From Mesorhizobium loti (GTDB taxonomy: Bacteria > Pseudomonadota > Alphaproteobacteria > Rhizobiales > Rhizobiaceae), in the NCBI GenBank assembly GCA_002356515.1, contig AP017605.1:3100001-3164000 (forward strand): a stretch of DNA of 64,000 nucleotides. The letters run 5' to 3'. Under the pieces are notes generated by a model. It had not been told where the DNA came from, did not search any database, and worked only from the letters and a program-made list of their open reading frames with translations. Made by a program: the position numbers and the translations under genes. This document shows, in pieces, positions 18,840 through 58,946 of the stretch (within the stretch, counting starts at the first letter, position 1; each line of letters starts with the position of its first letter).

Positions 18840-18992
18840 CCCCCCTCTGACCTGCCGGCCATCTCCCCCTCAAGGGGGGAGATTAGCTGTCGTTGCCGGT
18901 TTCGCCAGACTTCGACGTAGCAGAAAAAGCGAGGCAGAGACGCTGCTGATCTCCCCCCTTGAGGGGGAGATGCCTGGCAAGGCAGAGGGGGG
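18840..18992. repeat. Palindromic repeat family A, copy 1 (between phnK and phnL)
   Basis: Begins CCCCCCTCTG and ends CAGAGGGGGG. Inner arms with ATCTCCCCC and GGGGGAGAT occur on each side, so each half also folds on itself. It is 153 bp and matches the copies at 55924-56076 and 58179-58339 in its ends and layout. It lies inside the phn operon and may act as a processing or attenuation hairpin. Confidence 0.85.
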
Positions 18993-19031
18993 CGGCGCCC
19001 CGCAAACGAACGACAATTGGAGAACCTTCTG

Positions 19032-55923: not shown

Positions 55924-56076
55924 CCCCCCTCTGTCCTCCCGGACATCTCCCCCTCAAGGGGGGAGATCAGCAGCTTGTCTGTCCCGCGAATTCTTCAACG
56001 TTGAACATTGGCGAAGCCAAAAATGACAGCCAATCTCCCCCCTTGAGGGGGAGATGTCCGCCAGGACAGAGGGGGG
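55924..56076. repeat. Palindromic repeat family A, copy 2 (between binding-protein and dppB genes)
   Basis: Begins CCCCCCTCTGTCCTCCCGGA and ends TCCGCCAGGACAGAGGGGGG. Each end carries an inner ATCTCCCCC / GGGGGAGAT hairpin. At 153 bp it is the same size and structure as copies at 18840 and 58179. Confidence 0.85.
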
Positions 56077-56125
56077 CACTCACGCGCGACATTTCCTTTA
56101 GTCGTCGCGCACCGCCGACGCCCCC

Positions 56126-57112: not shown

Positions 57113-57939
57113 GCCCGCTGCGCCGCTTTCTGCGCACGCCCGAGGCGGTCGCCGGCGCGATCCTTCTGGCCGCACTGATAGCGATGGCGCTCATCGCGCC
57201 GCTGCTTTTCCCCGGCGATCCACAAGCCATTGCTGGACCGGCGCTGCTGCCACCGTTCCGGGACTGGTCGCTGCCGCTCGGCACCGACCGGCTCGGCCGC
57301 GACGTGCTGGCCGAACTGTTCCATGGCGCTCTTACCTCGCTTGCCGTCGGGCTGGCGGCAGCGGCAGCGGCACTCGCCATCGGCGCGGTGGTCGGCACGC
57401 TGGCCGGCTTTGCCGGCGGCCTCGTCGACGAGGTGCTGATGCGCATCACCGATGCTTTCCAGACCGTGCCGAGCTTCCTGCTGGCGCTGGCTTTCGTCAG
57501 CGTTGTCGGGCCGTCGCTCGGCGTCGTCGTTGCGGCAATAGCGCTTGGCACCTGGACGGGGCCGGCGCGAATTGCCCGCGCAGAAGTCCTCTCCATCCGT
57601 GAACGCGACTATGTCGCCAGTGCGCGTGCCATCGGCATGCATCCGCTGGAAATCGCCTTTCGCGAGGTGCTGCCCAACGCCTTGCCGCCAGTGCTGGCAA
57701 TGTCGTCGGTGATCGTCGCCGCCGCGATCCTCACCGAGGCGGCGCTGTCCTTCCTCGGCCTCGGCGACCCCAACCGGGTCACCTGGGGCGGGATGATCGC
57801 TGAAGGCCGCGCCGTGCTGCGCACCGCACCCTTCCTGTCGATCGTCCCGGGCATCGCGCTGGTGCTGACCGTGCTCGGCGTCTATCTGGCCGGTGAAGGC
57901 ATCGTCGAGACGACAGCGGTCAGGAGAGGCCTTTCGTGA
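57109..57939 (+). CDS. Peptide ABC transporter permease (DppC type)
   Basis: 276 residues. LPLGTDRLGRDVLAELFHGALTSLAVGLAAA is the family N-terminal signature. The coupling loop RERDYVASARAIGMHPLEIAFREVLPNALPP and LSFLGLGDPNRVTWGGMIAEGR follow. It pairs with the DppB-type permease, overlapping it by 4 bp, and overlaps the ATPase start (GTGA). Confidence 0.93.
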   Translation: MSPLRRFLRTPEAVAGAILLAALIAMALIAPLLFPGDPQAIAGPALLPPFRDWSLPLGTDRLGRDVLAELFHGALTSLAVGLAAAAAALAIGAVVGTLAGFAGGLVDEVLMRITDAFQTVPSFLLALAFVSVVGPSLGVVVAAIALGTWTGPARIARAEVLSIRERDYVASARAIGMHPLEIAFREVLPNALPPVLAMSSVIVAAAILTEAALSFLGLGDPNRVTWGGMIAEGRAVLRTAPFLSIVPGIALVLTVLGVYLAGEGIVETTAVRRGLS

Positions 57940-58946
57940 CGATGCTCGCTTCGATCCGCGACCTGACGGTGACCTACCGCCGCGACGGTCGCGAAGTGGC
58001 GGCACTGAAGGACATCAGCTTCGATATTGCGGCTGGCGAGCGCCTGGCCATTATCGGCGAAAGTGGTTCAGGGAAAAGCACGCTGGCGCTGGCGATTGCC
58101 GGGTTGCTGCCGGCATCGTCCGGGATCGATGGGCGCATCGATTGGTTTTCGCAAACACAGCCAACCTCGGGTGCCCAGGCGCCCCCCTCTGTCCTGCCGG
58201 ACATCTCCCCCACAAGGGGGGAGATCGGCAGCTCCGTCGCCGGCACTCCCTCTGCAGCGTTGGAGATTGGCGAAAGCGGTGGCGACAGCGCAATCTCCCC
58301 CCAAGTGGGGGAGATGTCCGGCAGGACAGAGGGGGGCGCCGTAGAGCGCCAACTTCGTCATTTTCGCAGTGGAACGCCCCTCCTCGGCCGCGACATCGGC
58401 TTCGTCTTCCAGGATCCCTCCGCCAGCCTCGACCCGGTGATGACCATCGGCAAACAGATCGCTGAAGTCGTCCGCACCCATCTCAGCCTCTCATGGCCGC
58501 AGGCATTCAGCAAAGCCAAAATCCTGCTCGAACGCGTCCGCCTGCCCGACCCGGACTCCGCCCTGCATGCCTTCCCGCATCAGCTGTCCGGCGGCCAGAA
58601 GCAGCGCGTGGCGATTGCCGCGGCCATCGCAGCGGGACCGAAACTGCTGATCGCCGACGAGGCGACCAGCGCGCTCGACACCATCGTGCAGGCCGAGATC
58701 GTCGCCTTGATCCGGAGGCTGGTGGCCGAGGATGGCATGACGCTGCTGTTCATCAGCCACGACATCGCGCTGGCCGCCGAACTCGCCGAGCGCATCGCCG
58801 TGTTTCGCCACGGCCGGCTGGTCGAGCTTGGCACGACGGCGCGGATTGTTGGCGCCCCAACCCAAGCCTACACACGCACCTTGCTCGACGCCCATATCGG
58901 CCTCGACGCCGCGCCATTGCTGAACCGGACTGGGCTCCCCGCATGA
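57936..58946 (+). CDS. Peptide ABC transporter ATPase (DppD type) carrying an in-frame palindromic insertion
   Basis: 336 residues, GTG start overlapping dppC. Walker A GESGSGKST (41-49), signature LSGGQKQRVA, Walker B LLIADEATSALD and H-loop FISHDI are all intact. Between Walker A and the Q-loop (GFVFQDPSASLD, 155-166) there are about 75 extra residues (71-145). The core of these (82-135) is encoded by a family A palindrome (SVLPDISPTRGEIGSS ... SAISPQVGEMSGRTEGG). The frame stays open, so the gene may be functional with a surface loop. Without the insert the length would be near 260. Confidence 0.9.
   Translation: MTMLASIRDLTVTYRRDGREVAALKDISFDIAAGERLAIIGESGSGKSTLALAIAGLLPASSGIDGRIDWFSQTQPTSGAQAPPSVLPDISPTRGEIGSSVAGTPSAALEIGESGGDSAISPQVGEMSGRTEGGAVERQLRHFRSGTPLLGRDIGFVFQDPSASLDPVMTIGKQIAEVVRTHLSLSWPQAFSKAKILLERVRLPDPDSALHAFPHQLSGGQKQRVAIAAAIAAGPKLLIADEATSALDTIVQAEIVALIRRLVAEDGMTLLFISHDIALAAELAERIAVFRHGRLVELGTTARIVGAPTQAYTRTLLDAHIGLDAAPLLNRTGLPA
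58179..58339. repeat. Palindromic repeat family A, copy 3, inside the dppD-type gene
   Basis: Perfect 33 bp arms at 58179-58211 and 58307-58339, with inner ATCTCCCCC/GGGGGAGAT hairpins on each side. The outer ends (GCGCCCCCCTCTG) match copies 1 and 2. TTTTCGCA occurs on both sides (58146-58153 and 58361-58368), 215 bp apart, and may be a trace of the insertion. The repeat is translated in frame. Confidence 0.9.

Follow-up and report, generated by a model that had tools for sequence, protein, structure and literature searches.

The best-known coding palindromes are those of Rickettsia, obligate intracellular bacteria whose Rickettsia palindromic elements (RPE) were reportedly described by Ogata et al. 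in 2000; among rhizobial repeats, RIME1 is a palindromic mosaic. In the relevant passages of two reports, RPE appear as palindromic repeats of about 105-150 bp, intergenic as well as in frame in conserved genes, and the one tested protein named there, the gmk product with its RPE, was still an active enzyme with a changed substrate affinity (PMC2229807, PMC10969869). RIME are described in an excerpt as rhizobial repeats lying in intergenic regions (PMC2245857). Intragenic REP elements, with units of 20-40 bp, occur in frame in bacterial genes (PMC3733652) and ERIC/RU fusions carry repeats in frame inside genes (PMC2759123), so that, as far as these excerpts go, coding palindromes beyond Rickettsia are not new as such; the same excerpts make no mention of genus-wide retention at one site or of orientation switching. 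Long inverted repeats also coexist with coding sequence in the mitochondria of Nematomorpha (PMC6649704), where, according to the passage available, both arms encode conserved protein, whereas the arms described below are foreign to their host protein. Among the titles, abstract openings and passages of the open-access literature, we recognised no earlier report of such an element inside Mesorhizobium genes.

The window, a stretch of 64,000 nucleotides from Mesorhizobium loti, contains a gene for a DppD/OppD/NikD-type ABC transporter ATPase with a palindrome of 163 bp lying in frame between Walker A and the Q-loop (Table 1). The arms are 96% complementary and their outermost 36 bp are perfect (58178-58213 / 58305-58340); the 33-bp arms given by the first-pass annotation (58179-58211 / 58307-58339) are exact reverse complements of each other. 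A smaller hairpin lies inside each arm, and as RNA the segment 58146-58368 has a folding energy of -148.9 kcal/mol (z = -10.9). A 28-nt arm pattern, searched with up to 3 mismatches, matched five times in the window and not once in any of 100 shuffles (maximum 0), and both intergenic copies that the annotation had proposed were recovered. It had also held that the frame and all catalytic motifs survive, which is so: the reading frame is open throughout and Walker A, the Q-loop and the LSGGQKQR signature are intact. Its estimate of about 75 added residues was somewhat high, as the distance from Walker A to the Q-loop is 339 nt here and 126 nt in a short allele, a difference of 213 nt or 71 residues. 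A pair of TTTTCGCA matches flanking the insert was considered as a target-site duplication and rejected; it is present in only one of 67 orthologous loops, that of this genome, and looks like a chance match.

Table 1. Coordinates of the host gene, its motifs, the palindrome and the intergenic copies in the window.
Feature	Position	Strand	Remarks
DppD/OppD/NikD-type ABC transporter ATPase gene, palindrome-bearing	57936..58946	+	336 aa; ABC_tran domain
Walker A	58056..58082	+	GESGSGKST
Palindrome arm 1 (48 nt)	58178..58225	+	read as (A)PPSVLPDISPTRGEI; inner hairpin 58203-58225
Spacer (67 nt)	58226..58292	+	orientation a here; reverse complement at the same place in 23 of 67 orthologous copies
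Palindrome arm 2 (48 nt)	58293..58340	+	read as ISPQVGEMSGRTEGG(A)
Q-loop region	58404..58418	+	VFQDP
Intergenic copy, same element family	18840..18994	.	arm-pattern match
Intergenic copy	55924..56077	.	in the same transporter cluster, with the substrate-binding-protein gene on one side and the first permease gene on the other

The host gene stands in a transporter cluster: the three genes before it encode one substrate-binding protein and two permeases, and the ORF next after it is, from its sequence, a second ATPase. An AlphaFold2 model built with 52 sequences had a mean pLDDT of 73.8, and its best matches among solved structures were chain C of E. coli DppBCDF and OppBCDF. Most of the protein outside the insert was modelled as a confident ATPase; pLDDT fell below 50 at residues 74-141, which include the insert, and at 323-336. 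Low pLDDT is usual for disorder and no proof of it, and on this model the insert is probably a floppy, disordered-like extra loop.

Copies of the element were found at no fewer than 40 distinct places in the 8.45-Mb genome, where 40 of 97 candidates were scored, and three genes have an internal copy: the DppD-type gene, cobG and cobN. No fourth host gene was recognised among these 40 places or among the 30 best-matching loci of four other genomes. Several open frames run across copies, but by eye these elements seem to lie just upstream of signal peptides and hence to be intergenic. In a survey of the GTDB family in which five candidates were scored per genome, the element occurred in at least 55 of 151 sampled genomes and at least 45 of 109 genera. 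Rfam gave no match at the gathering score. Two Y1_Tnp transposase genes lie close together (G000:C1:6053343 and 6055611), the nearest listed copy being at 6116954; among the copies listed, none has a Y1_Tnp gene beside it that would link the element to RAYT.

Orthologues of the DppD-type gene were surveyed in 146 Mesorhizobium genomes, one genome per species and one locus per genome. A homologue at E<=1e-60 was present in 135, and 130 loci were read, the five weakest being left out. The loop is full-length and in frame in 66 of these, intermediate and in frame in 30, short in 25 and full-length with a frameshift in three; three further loci have assembly gaps (N) and three could not be placed. 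Motif anchors alone gave 64 full in-frame, 29 intermediate, 24 short, three frameshifted and three N-gap loci with seven unanchored; the seven were read by eye and with earlier anchors as two full in-frame, one intermediate, one short and three unclassifiable, the last being at contig ends or on a fold-back contig. Whatever the loop length, 121 of 124 readable alleles are in frame. Among named genomes, carriers are for example M. carmichaelinearum, M. sangaii, M. amorphae CCBAU 01570 and M. muleiense, and the short loop is found in M. loti DSM 2626 and M. qingshengii; the orthologues thus do not all carry some unrelated loop of the same length. Rather than being private to this strain, the insert is old and occurs widely across Mesorhizobium.

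Single loci of the survey showed further features. Three draft genomes have N gaps inside the loop (L183, L186, L203), and one contig (C15 of G126, L161) folds back at the palindrome so that the gene is present in two opposed copies; this probably arose in assembly. Some assemblies break or fold back at the loop, which is a warning to annotators. The frameshifted full copies (L155 in G008, L157 in G050, L194 in G076) belong to nearly closed genomes, each on the main contig, and may be real or may be homopolymer errors. A symmetrical in-frame deletion has left a shorter perfect palindrome at L181 (G140).

On a FastTree phylogeny of about 1.75 kb of flanking sequence, which may itself be recombined, presence and absence of the element need 9 Fitch changes against 18.0 after shuffling, with 0 of 500 shuffles as low; presence was labelled from loop length and a motif, with intermediate loops counted as remnants. 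Presence of the element tracks this tree and is therefore inherited. Some short-loop alleles are placed among carriers, and a single gain followed by loss is therefore not the whole history.

The reading that we consider likely is that an old rhizobial repeat is carried here as a tolerated, in-frame passenger whose spacer has been turned and exchanged, and not as a demonstrated exaptation. A non-autonomous palindromic repeat, brought by its original mobilising agent, would have entered what is predicted to be a surface loop of the ATPase beta-subdomain early in Mesorhizobium and would have persisted since then as a passenger of about 54 residues, translated and disordered, with selection on the open reading frame and none on the peptide sequence. 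Recombination at the locus would shuffle arms and spacer between species, and the spacer would be turned occasionally; recombination between the inverted arms, or template switching from one to the other, would be the simplest route and would leave length and frame the same. In-frame deletion, to which palindromes are prone, may remove copies, as may replacement with insert-free alleles.

The element would thus work like an RPE, a likeness of behaviour with no membership claimed. As RPE do with palindromes of about 100-150 bp, it combines intergenic and intragenic copies, here of 163 bp, and the conserved genes into which it is inserted, dppD-type, cobG and cobN, keep their reading frame and are not lost. 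The comparison with Rickettsia made in the first-pass annotation is apt in this sense, as a rhizobial repeat is in frame in a conserved gene with its motifs intact. The differences are the bacterium, the three host genes whose sites are kept across dozens of species, and the occurrence of both spacer orientations together with sharing between species. RIME are alike in being rhizobial repeats, a likeness between descriptions, the published one in excerpt, and not between sequences. Mesorhizobium keeps the element at one gene site in dozens of species, and the short, partial, full and inverted alleles found there together offer a natural experiment on protein tolerance, on translation of a 48-nt mRNA hairpin and on the upkeep of palindromy in inverted repeats.

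The spacer was oriented in 67 copies at the DppD site (the full copies of G113 and G119 were not included): 44 have orientation a, as in the window, and 23 have its reverse complement, b. All 64 in-frame copies are free of stops, and 55 of them would stay open with the spacer inverted. What is new here is a spacer that occurs in both orientations at one site, open either way. Inverted repeats here surround a segment that occurs in both orientations at one locus, as in an invertible cassette, the two states being found in different species. On the flank tree, orientation gives no signal (21 changes against 19.4 shuffled; 449 of 500 shuffles needed no more), and on a tree of the spacers it gives a partial one (11 changes against 19.2, minimum 13 in 1000 shuffles), and there has therefore been more than one turn-round; the spacer has only 67 nt, so that its tree is weak and the 11 changes may be inflated.

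Turned copies with otherwise similar spacers are few. At 0.85 identity or above there are 6 opposite-orientation pairs among 1012 and 43 same-orientation pairs among 1199, and no opposite pair of DppD copies reaches 0.90; G009/G129 and G133/G086 come just under it after reverse complementing. The six opposite pairs involve just two a-copies and four b-copies, and recent inversions are therefore few. Ancient insertions in both orientations, combined with exchange, could mimic some inversions. It is possible, though we doubt it, that the spacer is a living in-frame switch which flips by arm recombination within populations, with parallels in CobG and CobN; one gene would then yield two equal-length versions of the loop and the transporter would not be lost.

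Exchange at the locus is suggested by the distribution of near-identical spacers. At 0.88 identity or above we found 36 of 2211 DppD pairs (32 in the same and 4 in opposite orientation), and none between DppD and cobG (0 of 1474), cobN (0 of 1541; this class may include a few cobG copies) or the intergenic copies of this genome (0 of 2479). Near-identical spacers thus occur, among the copies compared, only between DppD copies, which points to exchange at the locus itself. Ectopic conversion from intergenic copies was considered as a source of spacer turnover and finds no support in those 2479 pairs, which cover the copies of this genome. Normalised spacer identity hardly drops with gene distance, from 0.75 to 0.66, and left flank, spacer and right flank are weakly correlated (0.07-0.20), so that the loop is a mosaic.

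The same site might instead be a hot spot where species gained their copies independently, in either orientation at random. The absence of orientation signal on the flank tree would fit this, as would the 40 closest pairs, 37 of which have spacer identities of 0.63-0.82, and the presence of two insertion sites in cobN, where other repeat families are found too. We nevertheless hold recurrent insertion to be unlikely, since presence of the element follows the tree, near-identical spacers are confined to DppD copies when set against the intergenic copies of this genome, and the in-gene spacers are peculiar in length. All 67 are 1 mod 3 (67 nt in 63, 70 nt in two, 64 nt in one and 61 nt in one), unlike most copies in this genome: in the 37 others read here, a few of them incomplete, the spacer has 66 nt in 26, 65 nt in six, 67 nt in three and 64 nt in two, with 5 of 37 being 1 mod 3.

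The conservation of frame is not matched by conservation of peptide. The codon comparison used 56 in-frame copies, 11 of the 67 being left out for a frameshift, a spacer other than 67 nt or arms other than 48 nt. Their spacers have no stop in the used frame, whereas 26 intergenic spacers have 4 stops forward and 10 in reverse. Spacer pN/pS is 0.73 in orientation a and 0.95 in b. Read in their unused frames, these spacers have values of 0.61-0.88, and the 26 intergenic control spacers give 0.68-1.08 over six frames, their reverse frames corresponding only roughly because they have 66 nt. The ATPase core has a pN/pS of 0.23 and the N-terminus 0.32. The frame is kept, and no peptide-level constraint was detected in the spacer. 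The arms have a pS of 0.06-0.11 against 0.43 in the core and are therefore held largely at the DNA level; their pN/pS of 0.58-0.73 has no intergenic arm control beside it, so that weak constraint on the arms is possible.

These figures bear on the proposal of the first-pass annotation that the repeat has been exapted as protein sequence, that is, that the loop peptide is selected for transporter function, for example through contact with the permease or a partner. It could draw on the 66 of 130 loci with the loop in frame, on the small variation of the arm peptides across the genus and on the arm pN/pS. The synonymous sites of the arms are nearly as conserved, however, which makes their constancy mostly a matter of DNA, while the spacer evolves as codons much like intergenic spacers, its two orientations encode unrelated peptides, pLDDT stays below 50, and the loop is missing, wholly or in part, from many species. 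The proposal does not hold up well, and we regard exaptation as distinctly improbable. That the gene is a decaying pseudogene, open by chance, has the three frameshifted full copies in its favour and is very improbable, given the core pN/pS, motifs kept in 52 aligned proteins and the 121 of 124 readable alleles that are in frame.

Complementarity between the two arms of a locus is 0.925, against 0.902 when partners are shuffled between species (sd 0.003, maximum of 2000 shuffles 0.912). The arms covary at one loop position, where 57 of 61 copies pair (T-A 21, A-T 20, G-C 16); over all 48 arm positions, 2928 cells, there are 216 mismatches and 68 alternative pairs, 36 of the latter at one position, so that few positions contribute to the covariation. 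The data fit arm-to-arm correction, shared ancestry being another possible cause.

The other two host genes were identified by TIGR02435 (cobG, 490 bits, cut-off 234.8) and PRK12321 (cobN, 1366 bits, cut-off 1235), and in both the internal copy is read in the same frame; the cobN copy of this genome has a nested insertion in arm 2. Among 61 genomes of the genus, 41 of 60 with cobG have a match in one piece across the insert. The 30 best-scoring cobG loci were fetched and all have both arms. The likely start is residue 27, and from there on 29 of them are free of stops; in the exception, L296 (G028), a stop at query residue 310 closely follows the insert. Stops are listed in 13 of the 41 one-piece matches: three of these lie outside the fetched 30, and in nine of the fetched loci every stop falls within the first 20 query residues and so precedes the likely start. 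The cobG spacers are in orientation a in 12 and b in 13 of 25 readable copies, with 7 changes on the tree against 7.9 shuffled, the orientation of 85-nt spacers being less certain.

In cobN, two sites are used. At site 2, 19 of 30 fetched loci were read with the element and five without, and six were unreadable. Eight of the 19 are in orientation a and 11 in b, with 4 changes against 6.4 shuffled (30 of 500 as low), and orientation at site 2 carries some tree signal. The other site, site 1 near residue 186, holds in some species this element or a different palindrome family. A repeat family other than the present one, read as VPLPLEGRVRPQAGGGVL...HPPLEGEGK, lies in frame at site 1 in L324, L334 and L335, and another (SPSPLWGGSVRDIREADG...) at site 2 in L333 (G059). 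L311 (G000) and L315 (G129) have in common a nested in-frame insertion in arm 2 at site 2 (GGEEWSAQRTE...GSGRTEGG), although the two genomes are not close neighbours on the flank tree.
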